Assembly: GCA_030018315.1 (NCBI GenBank)
Contig: JASEGA010000008.1
Location: 1 to 64,000 of the forward strand
DNA: 64,000 bases
Reading direction: 5' to 3'
Source: a bacterium
GTDB lineage: Bacteria; Hydrothermota; UBA3073; JACQXS01; JAGMCI01
Shown here: positions 9,426-36,260 of the stretch, one piece after another
Numbering within the stretch: position 1 is the stretch's first letter
How the letters are laid out: the number at the start of each line of letters is the position of its first letter
The notes under the pieces: generated by a model
The model's database searches: none
The model's input: the letters and a program-made list of their open reading frames with translations, nothing else
What the model was told of the DNA's origin: nothing
Program-made: the position numbers and the translations under genes

Positions 9426-10164
9426 TGAGAATTAAAAAGCCCATTACCCAGCAATAAATAGAAAATAGATAAAAGTTTCTACCTTTAACAACCTTTAAAA
9501 GGTACTTGATTGATAAATAGCTTGCAAAAAATGATACAAAAATACCTATAATAACAGAGAGGTAGGGGCAAGGTAACCTCGCTCCTACAGAACGACAGAT
9601 TATTTCAAACATAGATGCTCCAATAATTGAAATAATTGCAAGCAGGAGAGAAAACTTTACTGCCTGCACCCGGTTAAGCCCTAAATAAATACCTGTTGAA
9701 ATAGTAATACCTGACCTTGATATTCCCGGAATAATCCCAATCCCTTGTGCTATACCAATCAGAATTGCATCTAATAGTGTAACTTTTACCCTTTTCTCTT
9801 CTAATCCACTTGTTAACCATAGAATTATTCCCATTACTACAAGAGCTAATCCAATTAAAATCAGCCTGTTAAAAACGAGCTCTATTTTATCTCTTAAAAA
9901 AAAGCCTAAAATACCTGCTGGTATAGAGCCAATAATGAGAACTAAAATAAGTTGTAAATCTTTTGTAACAATTTCCTTTATATCTTTACAAAGAACCGCA
10001 ATAATGGCAAGTGCTGAGCCAAAATGTAGAAAAACAGTAAGTGTAAGCTTATCTTTAATCCCAAATACTGCCTCTAACAATGCAAGATGGGCAGACGAAG
10101 ATATTGGAAAAAATTCTGTTACCCCCTGAACGATGCTAAGAATTAGAGAATAGAGTATACACAT
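9418..10164 (-). CDS. uppP: undecaprenyl-diphosphatase (BacA/UppP type)
   Basis: This polytopic membrane enzyme recycles undecaprenyl diphosphate to the monophosphate carrier used for peptidoglycan and exopolysaccharide. The two family motifs are present: QGVTEFFPISSSAH and PGISRSGITIS. The protein is 248 residues with many hydrophobic helices. A GTAGGGG-type palindrome (9562-9588) lies inside the gene and is read in frame as part of a loop (RSVGARLPCPYLSV) between two helices near the C-terminus, without breaking the frame. The gene converges on the protease gene with an 8-bp overlap. There is no clear ribosome-binding site. Confidence 0.93.
   Translation of the reverse strand: MCILYSLILSIVQGVTEFFPISSSAHLALLEAVFGIKDKLTLTVFLHFGSALAIIAVLCKDIKEIVTKDLQLILVLIIGSIPAGILGFFLRDKIELVFNRLILIGLALVVMGIILWLTSGLEEKRVKVTLLDAILIGIAQGIGIIPGISRSGITISTGIYLGLNRVQAVKFSLLLAIISIIGASMFEIICRSVGARLPCPYLSVIIGIFVSFFASYLSIKYLLKVVKGRNFYLFSIYCWVMGFLILII
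9562..9588. repeat. in-frame GTAGGGG-type palindrome within uppP
   Basis: This 27-bp near-palindrome starts GTAGGGGCAAGGT and ends ACCTCGCTCCTAC. It matches the 14574-14600 and 23968-23994 copies at all but a few bases. Here it encodes VGARLPCPY of the uppP product. Confidence 0.85.
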
Positions 10165-10225
10165 TAAATCAAAGATTAATTTGATATTTGATTTTTAATA
10201 TTTGATATTATTCTGGAGTCACCTG

Positions 10226-12274
10226 TTATTTTAAAATTACCATTTTCTTATTAAAAGTAAGTCCGCCAATCTCCAGTCTGTAGAAATATACACCGAATTG
10301 CACTTTTTCACCCTTTGCATCCTTCATATCCCAGACTGCAACTTTGTAACCCGATTCCTCAACACCATCTTTGATAGTTGTTACAATCTTTCCTGTAATA
10401 TCGTAGACTTTAATCTTTACCCTACTTTTTTCTGGTATAGCATAATGAATTCTTACAGCCCCAGTAGCCGGATTTGGAACACTTTGTAATAGCAAATAAG
10501 TAGTAGGTATAGAGTATCCTACTTCTTCTACTCTATAGCTTTGGACAAATATCTTTTTCGATGTGGTATCATTTGATGCTGCTACATCGCTTACAAGTAG
10601 TGTTTTCACATCCATGGTAAAAGTGGTGCCACCTGCAGCAGAAGGAACGCACCAGCTTCTAAAGGATACCTTTACAGTATCACCTGGACTAAGGTCTACT
10701 ACTCCCTGTGTATCTGCGTAAACTGACTGGTATATAGTGTGAATATCACAGTAGACATTAAAACTCACTCCTGTATTGCCGAAGTTTGCAACTTTAGCTA
10801 CAACATTGACTGTAGAATCTGTGTAAACTGTATCAGGTGGTGCTACTATTGCAACTGCACCTACATCCTTCAGTATACGAGTGAGTGTTAAGTTTATTGC
10901 TGTGTTACTGGAAATCACAACAGTCGTATCTTTAGAATAATAGTCTGTATGTGTCACATTTATCTTATAGGTACCACCTTTTACATTTAAACTGTATGCA
11001 CCGTGTCTATCAGTAATGTCCAGTGCAGTATCAGCACCTGTTGCTACCACTATGCTACCACTTGAATCTGATGGATTGTTTGATAACCCTACTTTGCCAC
11101 TCACAGTATATTGGGTAGATGTGAGTCTATATCTAATGTATAATGTCTGATTCCCTATATACATAGCTACACTATCAGTCCGCATATTAAGTTTAAGTGT
11201 TGTAGTATCAAATGTAAAAGTGCCCTCTGTGGGCAAATTTGATGGGCTCCACTTTATAGAATCAGTCTTCCCTATAGCATTAGTAGTGACTAATGTCCAA
11301 ATAATAAGTGTATCTGATACTGACCTCATATCTTTAGTCAAACAAGGGAAGTCAGGATGCACAATGTAAAAATATGAATCAAATGCACCTGGTGGCCCTG
11401 GTGGATGTGGCTCATCTATACCACTATCGTAACTATTAGTAGCATTGGGGTCAGTCCCAAAATAAAGTGTATAAGAGGTGCCATCGCCTTTTACTACTAT
11501 AGGGATAGACGCACTATGTTGGTCTGTGTTTTTTGACTCGTTACTACTTAAATCTACACTCCTTAATGTATACCAGTAGGTAACTCCACTTGTAAGTCCT
11601 GTATCAGTTTTTGTAGTCCCTGTCACGTTATCATGCACAAGACTACCAAGCTGACCTAAAGTTGTTGACCTGTAGATACGAATATGAGCAAAATCAAGCT
11701 GTGCCGGATTTGTCCAAGTAAGGATTGATTGGGTACCACCCCCTGTTCGGCTGACACTGATATTTGTAGGTGCAGATGGTGGTGTAGTGTCAGTATATGT
11801 TATAGTTTTGGTTATATTGCCTTCATATACTGCTACACTCTCTACACTCATATTGATACCATTTAATGTAAAAGTACCTTCATTAGATATATTTGCTAAG
11901 CTCCATGTTATAGAATCAGTCTTCCCAATTGCATTAGCTGTTACAAGTGTCCATGAGTTAGAAGCTGGTGCTCTTGCATCTTTAGTTAGACAAGGGAAGT
12001 CAGGATGCACAATGTAAAAATATGCATCAAATGCACCCGGTGGGCCTGGTGGATGCGGCTCATCTTTACCAGAATTATAGCCATCAGTAGCACCAGTATC
12101 AACAGCAAAGTAAAGAGTATATGAAGTACCATCTCCTTTAACAGTAATTGGGATTGACCAAGTAGGCGCTGATTCTACATTTACATATAAGAGCAAGGAA
12201 ACTATGAAAATAGCTACAAGAATTACTCTGTTACCACTGCTTCGCACATTTTTTCTATTTATTTTCTTAAACAT
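10226..12274 (-). CDS. secreted Fn3-containing protein with sorting domain (paralogue 1)
   Basis: The function is unknown. A basic N-terminus and hydrophobic helix (VILVAIFIVSLLLYV) form a signal. Two copies of a module with KGDGTSYTLYF and EPHPPGPPGAFDAYFY, then HPDFPCLTKDxR, flank a fibronectin type III-like domain (APTNISVSRTGGG to VTYWYTLRSVD). A carboxypeptidase regulatory-like domain (SGKVGLSNNPSD) and a CARDB-like region follow. The end has the sorting-domain pattern VPNPATGAVRIHYAIP and FYRLEIGG. ATG 12274 follows an AAGAGGGA ribosome-binding site; a longer frame to 12328 runs into a repeat. It is about the same length as its upstream paralogue (12520-14541). Confidence 0.85.
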   Translation of the reverse strand: MFKKINRKNVRSSGNRVILVAIFIVSLLLYVNVESAPTWSIPITVKGDGTSYTLYFAVDTGATDGYNSGKDEPHPPGPPGAFDAYFYIVHPDFPCLTKDARAPASNSWTLVTANAIGKTDSITWSLANISNEGTFTLNGINMSVESVAVYEGNITKTITYTDTTPPSAPTNISVSRTGGGTQSILTWTNPAQLDFAHIRIYRSTTLGQLGSLVHDNVTGTTKTDTGLTSGVTYWYTLRSVDLSSNESKNTDQHSASIPIVVKGDGTSYTLYFGTDPNATNSYDSGIDEPHPPGPPGAFDSYFYIVHPDFPCLTKDMRSVSDTLIIWTLVTTNAIGKTDSIKWSPSNLPTEGTFTFDTTTLKLNMRTDSVAMYIGNQTLYIRYRLTSTQYTVSGKVGLSNNPSDSSGSIVVATGADTALDITDRHGAYSLNVKGGTYKINVTHTDYYSKDTTVVISSNTAINLTLTRILKDVGAVAIVAPPDTVYTDSTVNVVAKVANFGNTGVSFNVYCDIHTIYQSVYADTQGVVDLSPGDTVKVSFRSWCVPSAAGGTTFTMDVKTLLVSDVAASNDTTSKKIFVQSYRVEEVGYSIPTTYLLLQSVPNPATGAVRIHYAIPEKSRVKIKVYDITGKIVTTIKDGVEESGYKVAVWDMKDAKGEKVQFGVYFYRLEIGGLTFNKKMVILK

Positions 12275-12341
12275 ATCCCTCTTTTTTCTATGCGGCACTG
12301 GTAAATTTTGTGCCATAATCTCGCGCATATCCCAGGGTAGC

Positions 12342-12402
12342 TTTGGGTCTCCTGACCCAAAATCCCTATTTTCTTAGGCAGGTCGGGAGACCTGCCCCCT
12401 AC
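12342..12402. repeat. two adjacent hairpin repeats
   Basis: The first hairpin is TTTGGGTC-tcct-GACCCAAA (12342-12361). The second is GGCAGGTC-ggga-GACCTGCC (12377-12396), followed by CCCTAC as in the GTAGGGG family. They lie in the 245-bp gap between the two paralogous genes, within the 5' leader of the downstream gene. Confidence 0.8.
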
Positions 12403-12439
12403 TCATATTTCCATTTTCTCGTCTCATTTACCAGCTCCA

Positions 12440-12468
12440 ACTTTAATTGAATAATTGCATTTTGTCAA
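12440..12468 (-). promoter_or_regulatory. promoter of the 10226-12274 gene
   Basis: On the minus strand TTGACA (12463-12468) is followed by a 17-base spacer and TAAAGT (12440-12445). It starts right after the terminator of the upstream gene. The leader of about 160 bases contains the two hairpin repeats. Confidence 0.65.
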
Positions 12469-12469
12469 T

Positions 12470-12500
12470 AAAAAAGGGGAGCTTTCACTCCCCCTTTAAA
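12470..12500 (-). terminator. intrinsic terminator after the 12520-14541 gene
   Basis: On the minus strand AAAGGGGGAG and CTCCCCTTT form a stem around a short loop (GTGAAAG), followed by a T-run. It lies 20 bases after the stop of the leftward gene. Confidence 0.8.
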
Positions 12501-12519
12501 TTTCTAATTTATCCCTAAG

Positions 12520-14541
12520 TTATCTTATCACAAGCATCTTCCTTGTAGATGAGAATCCAGCCGCTTCCAATCTGTAGAAGTAAACACCGGATTGCACTTT
12601 TTTACCGTTCGCATCACTCATATCCCACAGTGCAACTTTATAACCGGGCTCTTCAATACCGTCTTTAACAGTTGCAACAAGCTTACCTACGATATCATAG
12701 ACCGTAATCTTTACCTTGCCCTTTTCCGGTATAGCGTACGAGATTTTCACAACCCCAGTAGCCGGGTTTGGCACGCCTGGTGAAAGTGAATATGTAGTTG
12801 GTATAGAGGCTGCTACCTCTTCTATTCCAACTTTAAGTACAAATATCGTCTTTGACAATGTATCATTAGATGGATTTTCGTCAACTGCAAGTAAAGAAAT
12901 CGCAGTTATTACATATGTAGTGTCAGTAGTATGATGGGGAACAGTCCAATTCTTAAATATCACATCATCTGTCCCATCTACAGGTAATATTGCATTTCCG
13001 GAATCTGCATAAATACCGTCAATGATACATTTGACTTTAGGAGTTTCAGCTACTTTTCCAAAGTTCTTAAATCTTACATTAACAGAATATGTAGAGTCTG
13101 ATTTTACTGTATCAGGTGGTGAAAGAATAACAAATGGGCCAACATCTCTCTGTATTATATAGGTGAGGGTGTAATTTATCGTTGTATCCTTAGAAATTAC
13201 CACATCCATGCTTGAATCAGGATAATAACCATCATGAGTTACATGTATATCATAAGTGCCACTCATAAGCCCTGTAATCGCATAGAAACCCAGGCTATCA
13301 GTTGTATCTGCTTTACTATCTATTGTCACTATGCTACCACTTAAATTTGGTGGGTTATCTGATAGACCAACTGTACCCGAAACTGTATATGTAGTAGGTG
13401 GAAGCAGATATTTAATATATAGTGTCAGATTCCCTGTGTATACAGCTACACTATCAGTTCTCATATTAATGTTAAGGCCCGCAGTATCAAGTGTGAACAC
13501 ACCTTGAGCTGGTAGGTCTGCAGGGCTCCACTTTATAGAGTCAGTCTTCCCAATTGCATTAGCTGTTACCAATGTCCATATAATATGTATATCTGCAGCT
13601 GCTCTCATATCTTTAGTTAAACAAGGAAAGTCAGGATGCTCAATATAGAAATACGCATCAAATGCACCCGGTGGACCCGGTGGATGTGGCTCATCTATAC
13701 CTACATCGTAGCCGTCAGTAGCGTCAGGATGAGTTCCAAAATAAAGTGTATAAGAGGTGCCATTCCCTTTTACTATTATAGGTATAGCAGGGATAGAGGC
13801 AATAGGTGTACCAGAATACTGGTCTGTATTTTTAGACTCGTTACCACTCAAATCTACTGCCCTTAATGTATAGTAGTAGGTAGTCCCAATTGTTAGCCCA
13901 ATATCAGTCTTAGTTGTACCCACTACATTGTCATATACGAGACTGCCAAGTTGGCCCTGTACTACTGACCTATAGATACGAATATACGAAAAATCAGCCT
14001 GTGTCGGGTTTGTCCATGTAAGTTTAAGCTCCCCACTTACCCATGTATTAGCTACACTTACCCCTGTAGGTGCAGATGGTGGTGTAGTGTCAGTATATGT
14101 TATAGTTTTGGTTATATTGCCTTCATATACTGCTACACTCTCTACACTCATATTGATACCATTTAATGTAAAAGTACCTTCATTAGGTATATTTGCTAAG
14201 CTCCATGTTATAGAATCAGTCTTCCCAATTGCATTAGCAGTTACAAGTGTCCATGTGTTAGAAGCTGGTGTCCTTGCATCTTTAGTCAGACAAGAGAAGT
14301 CAGGATGCTCAATGTAAAAATATGCATCAAATGCACCCGGTGGACCCGGTGGATGTGGCTCATCTACATCTACATCGTAGCCATCAGTAGCACCAACAGC
14401 AGTAGCAAAGTATAATGTATACAAAGTACCGTCTCCTTTTACATTAATTGGAATTGACCAAACTGGGTCTGCTTTCACTTCTGACCACAAGAATAAAGAA
14501 GCCAAACAAGCAGCTATTGTAAAAAACTTTACCCTTTCCAT
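12520..14541 (-). CDS. secreted Fn3-containing protein with sorting domain (paralogue 2)
   Basis: This is a close paralogue of the next gene downstream, with the same order: signal peptide (FFTIAACLASLFLWSEVKA), first KGDGTxYTLYF/EPHPPGPPGAFDAYFY module, fibronectin type III-like domain (APTGVSVANTWVSG), second copy of the module, carboxypeptidase regulatory-like domain (SGTVGLSDNPPN), a CARDB-like domain and the C-terminal sorting domain (VPNPATGVVKISYAIP to FYRLEAAG). The long identical stretches at DNA level (for example around 11785-12030 and 14085-14330) point to recent duplication or gene conversion. The ATG at 14541 follows AAAGGAGGT. The function is unknown; a surface or S-layer-associated role is inferred. 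Confidence 0.85.
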   Translation of the reverse strand: MERVKFFTIAACLASLFLWSEVKADPVWSIPINVKGDGTLYTLYFATAVGATDGYDVDVDEPHPPGPPGAFDAYFYIEHPDFSCLTKDARTPASNTWTLVTANAIGKTDSITWSLANIPNEGTFTLNGINMSVESVAVYEGNITKTITYTDTTPPSAPTGVSVANTWVSGELKLTWTNPTQADFSYIRIYRSVVQGQLGSLVYDNVVGTTKTDIGLTIGTTYYYTLRAVDLSGNESKNTDQYSGTPIASIPAIPIIVKGNGTSYTLYFGTHPDATDGYDVGIDEPHPPGPPGAFDAYFYIEHPDFPCLTKDMRAAADIHIIWTLVTANAIGKTDSIKWSPADLPAQGVFTLDTAGLNINMRTDSVAVYTGNLTLYIKYLLPPTTYTVSGTVGLSDNPPNLSGSIVTIDSKADTTDSLGFYAITGLMSGTYDIHVTHDGYYPDSSMDVVISKDTTINYTLTYIIQRDVGPFVILSPPDTVKSDSTYSVNVRFKNFGKVAETPKVKCIIDGIYADSGNAILPVDGTDDVIFKNWTVPHHTTDTTYVITAISLLAVDENPSNDTLSKTIFVLKVGIEEVAASIPTTYSLSPGVPNPATGVVKISYAIPEKGKVKITVYDIVGKLVATVKDGIEEPGYKVALWDMSDANGKKVQSGVYFYRLEAAGFSSTRKMLVIR

Positions 14542-14573: not shown

Positions 14574-14600
14574 GTAGGGGCGAGGTTACCTCGCCCCTAC
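14574..14600. repeat. intergenic GTAGGGGCGAGGT palindrome
   Basis: This 27-bp palindrome has arms GTAGGGGCGAGGT and ACCTCGCCCCTAC. It is identical to the copy inside the glcD-like gene at 23968-23994. It lies between the giant gene and the paralogue pair and could also act as a weak terminator. Confidence 0.9.
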
Positions 14601-23356: not shown

Positions 23357-24781
23357 TTATACATCAAATATTTTACCCGGGTTTAGTATATTATTTGGGT
23401 CAAATACTTTCTTTATTTGCTTCATAATTTCAATTTGCTCCCTATCAACTGCCATTGATAAGTATGGCTTCTTTGTTAGCCCTATTCCATGCTCACCTGA
23501 AATCATACCACCTAAAGATATAACAACCTTAAATAACTCATGTATCAATTTGGGTATCCTCTGCTCCCACTCTCTATCAGCATCGAGATTATTCGCTTCG
23601 CTCAGAATGACAGGGGTGTCTCTTAGTATATTTACATGCACATTACCATCACCTACATGACCAAAGCTGACAATCCTAAACTTGTATTTGTTCTCCAATA
23701 TTTTCATATTTTTAAGCAATATAGGTATTTTGTTTCTCGGGACCACTACATCTTCACTTATAACCTTACCTTCTGATTTTAACGCATCTGATATACATCT
23801 CCTGCCTTCCCATAACTTATCTTGTCTTCCTTTGTCTTCAGCTACTAATACATCTATTGCACCATTCTTAAGTGCAATCTCTCCTATCTCTTCGTAATCT
23901 TTTTCAACTTCTTCTTTTCGGTTACCATCTATCTCTATAAGTAATTGAGCAGAGGCTTCACTAAACGGTAGGGGCGAGGTTACCTCGCCCCTACACAAAA
24001 ACTGTTCAGCCGCCTTAATTGCTTCTTTTTCCATAAATTCAATAGCTGTAGGTACAATTTTATGCCTGATTATCTCAGTTGCTGTATTTGTAGCGTATTC
24101 TATGTCATTGTATGGGATAAGTAAATCTACCTTCACTTTTGGCATTGGCAATAATCTAAGCGTAGCCTCAGTCACAAGTGCAAGTGTCCCCTCTGACCCA
24201 ATCAGTATACCTATTAAATCGTACCCTGTGACATTTTTAACTAATTTACCACCCAATTTTATAATTTCACCTTGTGGTAGCACTGCTTCTAATCCAACCA
24301 CATAATTTTTAGTTGTTCCATATTTAACTGCACGCGCCCCTCCCGCACATTCTGCTATATTACCACCAATTGTACACGAATCAAGTGATGCAGGGTCAGG
24401 TGGATACAACAGCCCAGATTTTTCAACTTCTTTGCTAAGTTCTCCAGTTATTACTCCGGGCTCAACAACTGCCATCAAATTCTCAGTATCTATCTCCTTT
24501 ATCTTATTCATCCTTTCAAATGATATAACTATTCCATTACTGGAAGGGACTGCCCCACCTGATAGCCCTGTCCCACCACCTCTTGGGATAACGGGTATTT
24601 TTTCAAAGTTTGCCAGTCTCATTATTTCACTTATCTCTTCTCTATTAGCTGGTTTTACTACCACCTTAGGCATAACTTTAATTCTTGGTGTCTCATCATG
24701 TGAATATGGCTCAATGCTTTCTTCAGATACAAGAATGTTATCTTTACCTACAATCTTTTCTAATTCTTCTATTATTTCCAT
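23357..24781 (-). CDS. GlcD-like FAD-linked 2-hydroxyacid dehydrogenase (copy 1)
   Basis: This belongs to the FAD-binding (PCMH-type) oxidase family of glycolate oxidase subunit GlcD and D-lactate dehydrogenase. It shows VIPRGGGTGLSGGA, the PPDPAS and GGNIAECAGGARAVKYG loops, and the C-terminal GHVGDGNVHVN and SGEHGIGLTKKP. It would oxidise a 2-hydroxyacid such as lactate or glycolate and pass electrons on. Compared with its paralogue at 28256-29695 it carries two extra peptides. RGEVTSPLP comes from the palindrome at 23968-23994, and PVILSEANNLDAD comes from another repeat at 23585-23613. The frame stays open, so the gene is probably functional. No ribosome-binding site is seen before the ATG. 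Confidence 0.88.
   Translation of the reverse strand: MEIIEELEKIVGKDNILVSEESIEPYSHDETPRIKVMPKVVVKPANREEISEIMRLANFEKIPVIPRGGGTGLSGGAVPSSNGIVISFERMNKIKEIDTENLMAVVEPGVITGELSKEVEKSGLLYPPDPASLDSCTIGGNIAECAGGARAVKYGTTKNYVVGLEAVLPQGEIIKLGGKLVKNVTGYDLIGILIGSEGTLALVTEATLRLLPMPKVKVDLLIPYNDIEYATNTATEIIRHKIVPTAIEFMEKEAIKAAEQFLCRGEVTSPLPFSEASAQLLIEIDGNRKEEVEKDYEEIGEIALKNGAIDVLVAEDKGRQDKLWEGRRCISDALKSEGKVISEDVVVPRNKIPILLKNMKILENKYKFRIVSFGHVGDGNVHVNILRDTPVILSEANNLDADREWEQRIPKLIHELFKVVISLGGMISGEHGIGLTKKPYLSMAVDREQIEIMKQIKKVFDPNNILNPGKIFDV
23585..23613. repeat. in-frame dispersed repeat (CATTCTGAGCGAAGCGAA type)
   Basis: Read on the coding strand this is CTGTCATTCTGAGCG followed by AAGCGAATAATCTC. It resembles a widely dispersed bacterial repeat and encodes VILSEANNL of the glcD-like product. 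The paralogue has nothing at this point. Confidence 0.75.
23968..23994. repeat. in-frame GTAGGGGCGAGGT palindrome in the glcD-like gene
   Basis: This copy is identical over 27 bp to the intergenic palindrome at 14574-14600. Here it is translated as CRGEVTSPL within the glcD-like protein. Confidence 0.9.
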
Positions 24782-24840: not shown

Positions 24841-24923
24841 GGAGTGCAAAATCGATGATTTTGCATCAAATTAGAAATCATCTTTCACTTTTATAATTTG
24901 CAACAACACCGTTGTTGCACTCC
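24841..24923. repeat. 83-bp composite inverted-repeat element
   Basis: The ends are GGAGTGCAA (24841-24849) and TTGCACTCC (24915-24923). Within each end lies another hairpin: GCAAAATC-gat-GATTTTGC on the left and TGCAACAAC-acc-GTTGTTGCA on the right. The element fills most of the 213-bp gap between the isocitrate dehydrogenase and glcD-like genes. It could fold as a cruciform and looks like a small non-autonomous mobile element. Confidence 0.8.
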
Positions 24924-24994
24924 ATATTCTCTCTCTACTTTAATTATAGAAATACTTACTTAATTAGGTTTACAATTAGAAATTCAGACTACCC

Positions 24995-28255: not shown

Positions 28256-29695
28256 TCATGTTCTTACAGGGTATCTAAGATTAGTTGCTGTTACCCAGTC
28301 ATCAGGTGCATCCATCAATTTATGCGGGTTTAAGATATTATTAGGGTCGAGTGCCTTCTTTACTGCTCCCATCATACCAAGTGAATCAGCCTTCTCTTTT
28401 TTCCATGAGGGTGCTTTTGATATTGCTATACCATGTTCACCAGAAGTTGTGCCACCCACACTCTTTACATAATCATATAGCTCATCAACTGCACACTTTG
28501 CATCTTCCCATTGTTCCTTTTTTGTAGGGTCCATTAATATCTTTGTATGTAAAATACCAGCCCCACAATGCCCATAAGCATTCATTATTACATTGTGACG
28601 TTCTCCAATTTCGTGAATCTTTCGTGCACATTCAGCTACTTTTGAGTTTGGTACAGCCATATCATCGGCTAACGAGGTGCAAGCAAAGCCTTCTTTATAT
28701 CTTGATAACGCAGCAAATAATTTCTTTCTACCAGTATAAATTCGGGTCATCTCTTTTGGGTCAGTACTAACCTCAATCCCAAACGCATTATGGTGCTCAC
28801 ATATTTGTTTAAGCACCTCTATATCCGAATTTACTATCTCCTTTGTCCTGCCATCACACTCAAATATTACAATTGCTTCAACCTCCGGCAGTTTCATATT
28901 AAGTGTCTTATTCAGAGCAATAATTCCTATATCATCTATAAGTTCAAGTGTAGAAGGAGTAACTTCAGAACTAACCATCCCTGATATCGCTTCACCAGCA
29001 TCTTCTAATTTATTAAACTTAGCTATTCCCATAGCTGCAAATTTAGGTATTCGCCGTAGAGACATTGTTACTTCTACAATTATACCAAGAGTACCTTCAG
29101 ACCCAACCATAAGCCTATGTAATTGGTAGCCTGATGCCTCACCTTTAGAAGCACTGCCAAGTGTTACCAAATCTCCATTTGCTAAGACGACTTTCATTCC
29201 CATAACATAATCACGAGCTGCACCATACTTTACTGCCTTTACTCCCGACCCATTATTAGCGATAGTACCACCAACAGTTGCGACCCTACCAGATTCTGGT
29301 GGCGTAGGATACCAGAGGTCGTAAGGTTCAAGAGCACGGTTAAGGTCGTCCATAGTTACGCCGGGTTCAACTTTACATAGTAAATCTTGCGGCTTTATCT
29401 CAATGATTCGATTCATTTGCTTTAAATCCATTATAATTCCACCGTCTATTGGGACTGCATGCCCTGATGTTCCTGAGCCGCCTCCCCTCGGAATAACTGG
29501 TATTAGCTCGGTATTAGCACAGCGCATAATTTCCTGCACCTCTTTGATAGTTCTTGGTCGTACAATAACCCAAGGCATAGCCTGATGAACTGATGCATCA
29601 GACCCATAGATATAAAGCTCAGCTGGGTCAGTTGAGATATCATCATCACCTACAATGCTCTCGAGCTTCTTCAATATTTTAGGCTTTAGCTTCAT
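28256..29695 (-). CDS. GlcD-like FAD-linked 2-hydroxyacid dehydrogenase (copy 2)
   Basis: This 479-residue flavoprotein of the GlcD/D-lactate dehydrogenase family has VIPRGGGSGTSGHAVP, PESGRVATVGGTIANNGSG, the C-terminal AYGHCGAGILHTK and SGEHGIAISKAP. It would take electrons from lactate, glycolate or a related 2-hydroxyacid. It is only 17 bp from the GlcF/HdrD-like gene and overlaps the hydrogenase maturation protease by ATGA, which places it in the hydrogenase transcription unit. Unlike copy 1 (23357-24781) it has no repeat insertions. A GGAGG site within the upstream gene supports the start. Confidence 0.9.
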   Translation of the reverse strand: MKLKPKILKKLESIVGDDDISTDPAELYIYGSDASVHQAMPWVIVRPRTIKEVQEIMRCANTELIPVIPRGGGSGTSGHAVPIDGGIIMDLKQMNRIIEIKPQDLLCKVEPGVTMDDLNRALEPYDLWYPTPPESGRVATVGGTIANNGSGVKAVKYGAARDYVMGMKVVLANGDLVTLGSASKGEASGYQLHRLMVGSEGTLGIIVEVTMSLRRIPKFAAMGIAKFNKLEDAGEAISGMVSSEVTPSTLELIDDIGIIALNKTLNMKLPEVEAIVIFECDGRTKEIVNSDIEVLKQICEHHNAFGIEVSTDPKEMTRIYTGRKKLFAALSRYKEGFACTSLADDMAVPNSKVAECARKIHEIGERHNVIMNAYGHCGAGILHTKILMDPTKKEQWEDAKCAVDELYDYVKSVGGTTSGEHGIAISKAPSWKKEKADSLGMMGAVKKALDPNNILNPHKLMDAPDDWVTATNLRYPVRT

Positions 29696-30189
29696 AATTC
29701 CTCCATTATTTTTTTAACAACTTTAGGAATACTTGTTTTTACTTTTTTTGTACAATTCTCACTAAATGTGGTATTATTCTCTATTTCTATACCATAAATA
29801 TCTATAACTTTTGGTAACTTATAGCCCAATTTCTCACCTAATTTAATCACAGTTGCAAAATCTACACCATGCGAATATGATAGATGAGGTAGGGACGTAT
29901 TGCAATACGCCCCTACTAAATCTTCTATCTTCAATTTATACACATCCCCAGGTTTACCTTTACCTGTTTTTATTGAATCAATAACCATGAGTCTATCATA
30001 CCCTGCAATTTCATCTAAGATAGAAATACCAGCAACATTACCTTCTTTAATTTCGATTTTTATGTCATTGCGAGCGTCGGCGAAGCAATCTCTTTGAGTT
30101 TTGACTTTTTTAAGCTCCTGCACAATCTTTACCCCCACTCCATCGTCAGAGAGTATAGGATTGCCAAGTCCTAAGATAAGAGTCTTCAT
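29692..30189 (-). CDS. [NiFe] hydrogenase maturation protease (HycI/HybD family)
   Basis: This family cuts the C-terminal tail from the hydrogenase large subunit after nickel insertion. It shows ILGLGNPILSDDGVGVKIV, with the conserved Asp, and MVIDSIKTG with a second acidic ligand, then YSHGVDF, which supplies the His. Two repeats are inserted in frame: TQRDCFADARND (30064-30093) and VGAYCNTSLP (29889-29916). The protein has no missing key residue. The start at 30189 (KTLILGLGN) fits relatives; an earlier TTG at 30201 is possible. It follows the hydrogenase large subunit with a repeat-containing gap and overlaps glcD copy 2. Confidence 0.88.
   Translation of the reverse strand: MKTLILGLGNPILSDDGVGVKIVQELKKVKTQRDCFADARNDIKIEIKEGNVAGISILDEIAGYDRLMVIDSIKTGKGKPGDVYKLKIEDLVGAYCNTSLPHLSYSHGVDFATVIKLGEKLGYKLPKVIDIYGIEIENNTTFSENCTKKVKTSIPKVVKKIMEEL
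29889..29916. repeat. in-frame GTAGGG-type palindrome in hydrogenase protease
   Basis: The 28-bp palindrome has arms GTAGGGACGTATTG and CAATACGCCCCTAC. It encodes VGAYCNTSL. Confidence 0.88.
30064..30093. repeat. in-frame GTCATTGCGAG/CGAAGCAATCTC repeat
   Basis: The sequence gtcattgcgagcgtc followed by ggcgaagcaatctct matches the outer parts of the intergenic element at 34252-34293. Here it encodes RDCFADARND in the maturation protease. Confidence 0.85.
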
Positions 30190-30226
30190 ATAAAATATCA
30201 AAAATTAAAAATCAAATATTAAAATT

Positions 30227-34320: not shown

Positions 34321-36213
34321 CTATTGACTAATGAATTTCTCCGGTATTATGTAATCACCGTGTTTTTCTCTTGCCTTGTTTAATCTCTGTCTCTGCTCTT
34401 CCAATACTTCAAACACTATTTGTGGTGTATCGGTAACTTTAGTTTTATAAATCTCTGTTATCCGATTAATCTTAGCCAAATTTTCTGGCACCCTTATCAT
34501 AAATTGCTTGTTATAATCCTCCTTAGTATAGTCTTTCTTAAGTACTTCATTAAACAGCCGTTTTAGGTCATCATACTTTGGAATACGACCAGTAGGTGTA
34601 TTTATAGCATCTACTTCTTTATGCACACGTAGCTCCATCCACTTATACCAGACCTTTTTATCTGTCTTCTCATTTAAAAACTTGCCGTCTTTGTCTTTTA
34701 AAAAGTAATTCACTGAGAAAATAAGGGGCGGATTTCCGCCTGAGGCGGACAAGTCTTTACCAAAATCCAAATTATTTTGTATGTATCTACCTACTGGGAT
34801 TGATAAAAAATCTAAGTTAGACATTGGATTGAATTCCCTAACTCCTTCTTTACCAAGCGTAGCTGCTGTAGTCTCAGACTCAAGCGATGCCCCTTTGGTA
34901 ATTATACCATGCGACCAATCAAACGACTCTTCTACTGGCACCCATGTATCTGAATCTCTACCTCCATAAACTATTCCGCCAATCACAACACCCTCGGGGT
35001 CATTGAGCTTTTTATCTACATTTTCTAAAATACTCAAATCAAGTGTAAATCTCGCATTTGGGTGTGAGCAAGGTATTTCTTTACCTTTAGCATCCTTTTT
35101 GCCAATCTGCCACTCACCTGAATGATTATACCCATTAACCGGGACTGCACCATCCTTTCCAATCCAATGTACATGCTTATCTTCAGTAACTAACACATTT
35201 GAAAATATAATCTCAGCCTCGCTGTGAAGCGCATTCCATTGGCTTGGGTCATCTACAGAATTTACTCCCTGTATTATACCAAACATACCTTTCTCTACAT
35301 TCACTGCACGTGCCACACCGTCCTTCTTTTTAATATAAGCTATGTCATCACCTACTATAGTTTCACCATCTAACATTGCAGTTGAAGTCTTACCACAAAG
35401 TGACGGGAATGCACCCGTAAAATAAGTTACCCTATTTTTAGGCCCATGAATACTCATTATGAGCATATGCTCAGTTAACCAGCCTTCTTTTGAGCTACGA
35501 GTTATTGCAAGTCGCATTGCCAACTTCTTAAGTCCAATGGTATTACCACCGTATTGAGTATTTGTGCTATATACAATATCGTCTTCAGTATCTATATATA
35601 TTCTGCGTTTGTCAAGATTTTTACAAGTCTTACGCTCATCAAGTTCACCCTGTGAATGTACAAACTTAAAGAAGTGCGCCAAAGGTCCCTGTTTTATAAA
35701 CTCTTCATAACCGGGTCTATAAAGAATAGTTTCACTGTGAGCTACATAGCTTGAATCTGTCAGCTGGACAGCAGGGATAGAGAACTCAGAATTAGTAGGT
35801 CCTAAACAGAAGAAGCAGATGTAAAGCTCTTTCCCTTTCATTATATTTTTCAAAATCTCGTGTATCTCTTTTAACCCTTCATCCCTATCTTTAGTCTCTA
35901 TTGTAGGACCGAGGTCTACTCCTTTTGGGACAAGAATACCAGTATGCTCCTTATCTCTTCCTTGGTCAAAATAATTATCAAAGTGAATAGTATGACCAGG
36001 GATAGCAAGTTTAGCCTCCTCTCCATTATTTATTGCTGATTCCCTTATGTATCTGATATCATCAGGCGAATCATTGCAAACAAACACCCTGTCTGGAGTA
36101 CAAAGCTCTACATACTTAGCGATAAATTGATGGAGTTTTGTATTATTTATCCTCATAAGCTTACGGTAACTCTCTTCTCCTAACTTAGTTTTAAGCAATT
36201 CTAACTCAGCCAT
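34321..36213 (-). CDS. pckG: phosphoenolpyruvate carboxykinase (GTP type)
   Basis: This enzyme interconverts oxaloacetate and phosphoenolpyruvate. The P-loop FPSLCGKTSTAM, the GIVYGGRDSDTWVP stretch, and PPLIFSVNYFLKDKDG are typical of GTP-dependent PEPCK, and the length (630) is normal. A double palindrome at 34727-34750 is read in frame as SASGGNPP just before PPLIFSV, which adds a few residues in a surface-loop region. The ribosome-binding site is AGAGGGGG. It is placed between citrate synthase and larA-like, so it links the TCA segment with sugar and pyruvate metabolism. Confidence 0.92.
   Translation of the reverse strand: MAELELLKTKLGEESYRKLMRINNTKLHQFIAKYVELCTPDRVFVCNDSPDDIRYIRESAINNGEEAKLAIPGHTIHFDNYFDQGRDKEHTGILVPKGVDLGPTIETKDRDEGLKEIHEILKNIMKGKELYICFFCLGPTNSEFSIPAVQLTDSSYVAHSETILYRPGYEEFIKQGPLAHFFKFVHSQGELDERKTCKNLDKRRIYIDTEDDIVYSTNTQYGGNTIGLKKLAMRLAITRSSKEGWLTEHMLIMSIHGPKNRVTYFTGAFPSLCGKTSTAMLDGETIVGDDIAYIKKKDGVARAVNVEKGMFGIIQGVNSVDDPSQWNALHSEAEIIFSNVLVTEDKHVHWIGKDGAVPVNGYNHSGEWQIGKKDAKGKEIPCSHPNARFTLDLSILENVDKKLNDPEGVVIGGIVYGGRDSDTWVPVEESFDWSHGIITKGASLESETTAATLGKEGVREFNPMSNLDFLSIPVGRYIQNNLDFGKDLSASGGNPPLIFSVNYFLKDKDGKFLNEKTDKKVWYKWMELRVHKEVDAINTPTGRIPKYDDLKRLFNEVLKKDYTKEDYNKQFMIRVPENLAKINRITEIYKTKVTDTPQIVFEVLEEQRQRLNKAREKHGDYIIPEKFISQ
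34727..34750. repeat. in-frame TCCGCCTGAGGCGGA repeat in PEPCK
   Basis: Two overlapping palindromes, GGCGGATTTCCGCC (34727-34740) and TCCGCCTGAGGCGGA (34735-34749), are translated inside pckG as SASGGNPP. The GC-rich word stands out from the AT-rich gene. Confidence 0.82.
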
Positions 36214-36233: not shown

Positions 36234-36260
36234 GTAGAGGCGGGGTGACCCCGTCCCTAC
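36234..36260. repeat. GTAGAGGCGGGGT palindrome
   Basis: A 27-bp near-palindrome with arms GTAGAGGCGGGGT and ACCCCGTCCCTAC, of the same size and ends as the GTAGGGGCGAGGT copies. It sits between PEPCK and citrate synthase, just before the citrate synthase stop codon on the + strand, followed by the TTAGACT word array. Confidence 0.85.

Follow-up and report, generated by a model that had tools for sequence, protein, structure and literature searches.

A 27-nt palindrome carried in frame by a glcD-like gene is probably a member of a mobile, REP-like family of hairpins with GTAG ends, whose spread seems most likely to have been driven by a subgroup of RAYT transposases and whose genic copies have replaced host sequence. 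The family, the in-frame placement of its members, the replacement relative to close relatives, the reuse of sites and the association with a transposase gene all emerge from sequence comparisons within and among genomes. The window (the whole 64,000-nt stretch analysed) lies on contig C8 of a genome of ~1.95 Mb in 74 contigs, and contains the following features.

1980-2007 (no strand assigned): degenerate 28-nt palindrome GTAGGGGCAATTCATGAATTATCCCTAC, probably extragenic
9562-9588 (no strand assigned): diverged palindrome copy with 2-3 mismatches, in frame in the UppP (undecaprenyl-diphosphatase) gene and read VGARLPCPY
14574-14600 (no strand assigned): palindrome GTAGGGGCGAGGTTACCTCGCCCCTAC, an exact match to the glcD-like copy, free between genes
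23357-24781 (minus strand): glcD-like FAD-linked oxidase / D-lactate dehydrogenase (LctD-type) gene, host of the palindrome, assigned by family and PDB comparison
23585-23611 (minus strand): second, unrelated repeat GTCATTCTGAGCGAAGCGAATAATCTC, part of TPVILSEANNLD, in frame in the glcD-like gene with a net gain of 10 residues
23968-23994 (no strand assigned): palindrome GTAGGGGCGAGGTTACCTCGCCCCTAC in the glcD-like gene, 27 nt, GTAG...CTAC, the minus strand encoding (C)RGEVTSPL(P), residues 263-271
29889-29916 (no strand assigned): 28-nt palindrome with core GTATTGCAATAC, read VGAYCNTSLP in the frame of the hydrogenase maturation protease gene at 29692-30201 (minus strand)
36234-36260 (no strand assigned): 27-nt palindrome with core GGGGTGACCCC, counted as extragenic, immediately upstream of where the ORF that ends at 34324 (minus strand) probably starts

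The glcD-like gene and the palindrome family

The exact 27-mer is present twice in the window, at 14574-14600 and at 23968-23994, and in the second position it encodes CRGEVTSPL within a minus-strand ORF (23357-24781) that is continuous across it (...AAEQFL-CRGEVTSPL-PFSEASAQ...). No sequence within three mismatches of GTAGGGGCGAGGTTACCTCGCCCCTAC arose in 100 dinucleotide shuffles. The host protein is itself an FAD-linked oxidase, nearest to LctD/GlcD, and the paralogue at 28256-29695 (33% identity) lacks the peptide and shows a 7-residue gap at the site, in agreement with the preliminary description. RGEVTSPL is absent from all homologues among 30 genomes, and also from LctD 7qh2 and glycolate oxidase 9qgz; homologues carrying the same peptide in repeat-free genomes, named beforehand as the case that would speak against a spreading palindrome, were sought and none was found.

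The homologous motif FLxxKLPF corresponds to FLCRGEVTSPLPF in the glcD-like protein, a net difference of 5 residues and not 9, and alignment to LctD places a 5-residue gap opposite the palindrome peptide. The palindrome was therefore not simply added to the gene but took the place of about 12 nt of it. The original proposal of a spreading palindrome that left the conserved enzyme gene it had entered intact is supported, with the correction that the element is not a clean insertion. For this gene the relatives searched include no second species of the genus, and the one relative from the same family lacks the gene. In an AlphaFold model residues 263-271 lie in a poorly predicted stretch between a helix (252-264) and a strand (278-286) and are mostly loop, with a block pLDDT of 66; no function is expected of the peptide CRGEVTSPL itself.

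The repeat at 23585-23611 of the same gene was absent from the preliminary description. The genome has 13 matches (L388-L400) to the 18-nt core pattern of this repeat, and residues 390-394 at this place are modelled as a loop with pLDDT <50 between a helix and a strand. Open-frame copies of this second family (GTCATTCTGAGCGAAGCGAAGAATCT) are found in glcD, in a 250-aa methyltransferase-like ORF, and in ORFs of 729 and 585 aa. HycI (29692-30201) also contains TQRDCFADARND, which resembles a translated repeat of the GTCATTGCG type, and the hycI gene may hold two unrelated in-frame repeats. The interval that follows glcD has an inverted repeat, GGAGTGCAAAATCGATGATTTTGCA ... TGCAACAACACCGTTGTTGCACTCC, at 24841-24924, before the next gene, and this may be a further hairpin family. 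Two tandem repeat segments of ~2.3 kb, at 10225-14454, lie within genes of T9SS-type (sorting-domain) appearance and adjoin the free palindrome copy.

Palindromes of 27–29 nt matching GTAGRGRC...GYCYCTAC are present 27 times in the genome, a lower bound, as are the other copy numbers of this family, because a pattern with two exact ends skips diverged copies. Within this genome the analysis covered the places matched by searches and the stretches retrieved around them. The reversed pattern gave no match in this genome and at most one in a few others, and together with the shuffles this rules out chance palindromes. Nineteen of the 27 copies lie in open frames of at least 150 aa, one of them at a doubtful N-terminus. 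NCBIfam assignments of the host genes include dxr, serS, leuS, purL/purQ, coaBC, murI, plsY, a gcvH-like gene and dprA, with uppP holding the diverged copy, and glcD and hycI being those inside the window. One 548-aa gene (L041) carries two palindromes with different cores (10636-10663 and 10816-10843), both in frame. The cores vary but remain self-complementary (GAGGTTACCTC, GGGGTTACCCC and AGGGTTACCCT at 27 nt; GTATTGCAATAC, ACGCCATGGCGT and AATTCATGAATT at 28 nt). The palindrome is symmetric: each strand begins with GTAG, which pairs with CTAC. On each strand one of the three frames is closed by TAG; the other two are open, and both occur in genes (VGARLPRPY and RGEVTSPL).

The family is patchily distributed, occurring in 29 of 100 genomes of the phylum, and the amplified cores are genome-specific; G005, for example, has at least 10 exact copies of GTAGGGACAGATTATAATCTGTCCCTAC. 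The preliminary description needs amending here, in that the 27-mer represents one core of a multi-core family common to many phyla. Among the matches listed, the exact glcD 27-mer occurs in Poribacteria, Chloroflexi, Zixibacteria, Planctomycetes, Acetothermia, Nitrospiria, Cyanobacteria, CPR lineages and others, and 18 of 75 such copies are in frame in ORFs, compared with 84% of random positions. The in-frame share is higher in the window's genome (~18-19 of 27) than among these 75 cross-phylum copies listed (Fisher p about 1e-4).

Replacement of host sequence and reuse of sites

We compared orthologous alleles among G007, G008 (the same genus, ~92% DNA identity at the compared loci) and G002. 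The element is absent from the sister at five genic sites (L111, L113, L118, L119, which is murA-like, and L158) and at one intergenic site (L162); the comparison at L112 is ambiguous. Read by eye from the alignments, the net gains at the five genic sites are 18, 15, 12, 12 and 12 nt for elements of 27–29 nt, all multiples of three, and 46 nt at the intergenic site. Alignments with PDB homologues give net differences of ~+5 residues for Dxr, +5 for PurQ, +1 to +2 for SerS, +1 for LeuS and +5 for GlcD. The 27–29 nt elements in genes thus overwrite host sequence, and the net change is no more than +1 to +6 codons. A fixed target duplication with clean insertion was considered as well, and was rejected on account of the net gains of 12–18 nt. 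(The names ligA, murA and glycosyltransferase used for genes of relatives come from reading of the protein sequences and not from a family search.)

One account of the entry step, which we regard as possible though not favoured, and which is compatible with mobilisation by RAYT, is an ordinary insertion followed by deletions that restore frame and loop length. Elements of 28 and 29 nt would break the frame as pure insertions, such that some adjustment is needed. Elements of 27 nt need none, yet their gains are also reduced (+15 nt in glcD, +12 nt at L158), and the adjustments are already visible between species at ~92% DNA identity.

The same palindrome is retained between sisters at L126/L205, L125/L160 and L123/L208. 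Often, however, sister species have different palindromes at a shared site: in the DNA ligase gene ligA of three species (L128/L206/L220), with intact palindromes GTAGAGGCAGGCTTCAACCCTGTCCCTAC and GTAGGGACTCCGCCTCTGGCGGAGTCCCTAC and a decayed third, at L129/L207, and at two glycosyltransferase sites (L127/L164). At L115/L157 the outer ends GTAGGGGC..GTCCCTAC, including their mismatch, are preserved, and the core is swapped. L117 and L130 are further cases of reuse in decayed form. The inverted-repeat score test is too strict for decayed palindromes and an end-match test was added, the p values of which are upper bounds, its null including true sites.

The linker of a methyltransferase/MTHFR-like protein has two tandem palindromes in G007 and G008 (L125:1960-2030 and L160), and palindrome remnants lie at the same place in G000 (L023, C18:14022). 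A methyltransferase gene carries a family palindrome at the same position in two families of the order (L057, C12:41638, and L158, G008 C23), and G002 has no palindrome at that site.

A RAYT-type transposase gene and the spread of palindromes

The window's genome has two IS200-like matches above cut-off, and the one on C1 contains a palindrome within its own frame. The transposase scores above cut-off for PF01797; L372 falls below the cut-off of NCBIfam NF047646 REP_Tyr_transpos (66.3 bits versus 80), which is still its nearest family. A PDB profile search returned 4er8 as the sole match, and a fold search with the transposase model placed 4ER8, the structure of a RAYT in complex with a REP hairpin, at the top; the internal palindrome segment is disordered in the model (pLDDT <50 at 88-99).

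When the C1 transposase was used as a query with the peptide omitted, matches in many relatives were split directly behind the HuH motif. A palindrome lies 30–75 nt behind the HuH codons in G000, G002, G005, G011, G013, G015, G043, G047 and G059; in G018 it coincides with a break in the frame at this position. Some of the RAYT genes also have a copy with the same core near the start, the stop or both, so that G043 C154 has three copies and G043 C116, G047 C212 and G002 C74 two each; flanking copies stand at both ends of some genes (L380, L375), at one end of others, and are missing from the rest. The orientation of flanking copies is undefined, as the palindrome is symmetric. A description of the locus as a REPtron with flanking copies only was rejected as incomplete, the internal copy being a regular feature. 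Literature text searches, in which many journals fall outside coverage, returned no report of a palindrome within a RAYT gene, and a search for the palindrome sequence gave only unrelated sequence matches.

The internal RAYT cores match copies in their own genome more than those in other genomes (permutation p=0.0005, its certainty overstated because the relatives are not independent), although for two of nine (G002 C74 and G043 C116) no matching copy lies outside the locus itself. Palindromes are present in 12 of 16 genomes with the RAYT subgroup but in only 17 of 84 others (Fisher p=4e-5, with certainty again overstated as kinship is ignored). On the strength of these sequence associations we infer that RAYT proteins mobilise the palindromes.

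A plausible course of events is that RAYT would nick single-stranded DNA at the GTAG/CTAC ends of the hairpin, by comparison with TnpAREP, which cleaves single-stranded REP hairpins and for which GTAG is important for cleavage (PMC8266576). The hairpin would then enter another site, by joining or by being copied over a short piece of the sequence there, with a preference for places where such a hairpin exists already or could arise. Purifying selection would remove those events that disrupt the frame or a fold the protein needs, and the survivors would lie in frame in loops; in glcD the palindrome has replaced ~12 nt and added 5 residues between the helix and the strand. We suggest, as a tentative extension, that the gene of this HuH transposase subgroup carries the master copy, with which it overwrites or exchanges hairpins elsewhere, and that host genes keep a docking site whose content is swapped with the frame intact. 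Some observations count against RAYT as the agent: palindrome-rich G050, G007 and G029 have no RAYT of the subgroup, for which incomplete assemblies or later loss could account, and the core in the G000 C1 RAYT is a one-step relative of the glcD core and not identical to it (GGGGTTACCCC versus GAGGTTACCTC). Insertion of the IS608 type, moreover, is precise and would not remove 10–17 nt of target.

For replacement and exchange, the chief competing account is spread and turnover with no dedicated enzyme, through template switching in replication or repair and through short tracts of gene conversion from one hairpin to another (quasi-palindrome correction), with the RAYT loop merely tolerating a copy. 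Copying over between hairpins fits the 10–17 nt replacements better than does classical transposition, fits the L115/L157 core exchange with its outer arms kept, and has no difficulty with the several palindrome-rich genomes that lack the RAYT subgroup. It does not explain why palindromes take a regular position in RAYT genes, with same-core copies at both ends of some, why the cores within these genes match copies in their own genome, or why RAYT and palindromes co-occur, and we judge it rather unlikely as a full account.

Much less probable is that the palindromes in genes have a function for which selection keeps them, such as that of a hairpin in the transcript or a tag on the protein. The transcript hairpin is very stable (-32.3 kcal/mol, z -5.4) and at some sites a palindrome is kept across species. 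The peptides, however, vary with frame, strand and core (VGARLPRPY, RGEVTSPL, VGTRHGVSL, RDTPWRVPT and others), the host genes are unrelated, homologues manage without the peptides, and the cross-phylum 27-mer is depleted in genes, as given above for the matches listed. Conservation of a peptide for its function was therefore rejected as the main reading. An artefact of metagenome assembly is very improbable, for although the assemblies are drafts, the elements are shorter than one read, lie in frame in many genes, and belong to a family found in independent assemblies from many phyla.

Comparison with known systems

Elements of this kind are already known. GTAG REPs, their RAYTs and in-frame genic copies in O. 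terrae and others have been described, as have different REPs at about the same site in Xanthomonas recB (Di Nocera et al. 2013, PMC3733652). Like the present family, GTAG-tagged REPs are palindromes of 20–40 nt with a GTAG end and several cores per genome, are associated with a RAYT gene, and have some in-frame genic copies (PMC3733652; Nunvar et al. 2010, PMC2817692). They differ in that their GTAG is unpaired and at one end only, whereas here it is paired with CTAC in a symmetric palindrome, and in that they are predominantly extragenic, mostly downstream of genes, whereas most copies in the present genome are intragenic. REPs are usually thought of as extragenic, and in-frame REPs in genes have been published for R. 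conorii as well as O. terrae. The present palindromes are further set apart in being nearly all single copies, in replacing host sequence, and in having a copy inside the transposase gene; the text of PMC3733652, Figure 1 aside, makes no mention of GTAGGGG.

The likeness to Rickettsia palindromic elements drawn in the preliminary description is apt for behaviour, in that both are palindromes translated in frame in many unrelated genes with the proteins kept, and the sequence is indeed a different one, but the nearest known kind is the GTAG-tagged REP/RAYT group. RPE-4 and RPE-6 are classed as CGTC repeats (PMC3733652), which have no associated transposase gene, whereas the present palindromes do; these have GTAG ends and no CGTC tag, and membership among the Rickettsia elements was rejected on this sequence tag. 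RPE-1 elements are also longer. REPINs are pairs of inverted REPs that form a larger hairpin and are mostly extragenic. The present family shares with REPIN/RAYT systems short palindromes and a RAYT-type transposase, but nearly all of its copies are single and often in genes, tandem pairs such as L125/L160 and L010 being exceptional. With IS200/IS605 elements and TnpAREP (PMC8266576, 4ER8) the transposase shares the HuH/Tyr fold, and recognition of single-stranded hairpins and a role for GTAG in cleavage are features of TnpAREP. The precise insertion of IS608 offers no explanation for the replacement of target seen here.

The window's genome and its relatives thus present a REP-like family that lies mostly inside genes, many of an essential type, and is rewritten between sister species, together with a transposase that can be traced, because a matching palindrome in its own gene names its likely substrate. 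The RAYT-internal palindrome and the before-and-after alleles of sister species make REP movement directly testable, and there is a caution for annotation, in that short peptides of predicted proteins, such as VGAGLKPAPT, RGEVTSPL and VGAIHELPL, can be loops of transposon origin. As far as we could check, what is new is a mostly intragenic population of symmetric GTAG..CTAC palindromes, the replacement of host sequence, the recurrent exchange of palindromes at fixed positions, and the presence of a cognate copy within the gene of the transposase.
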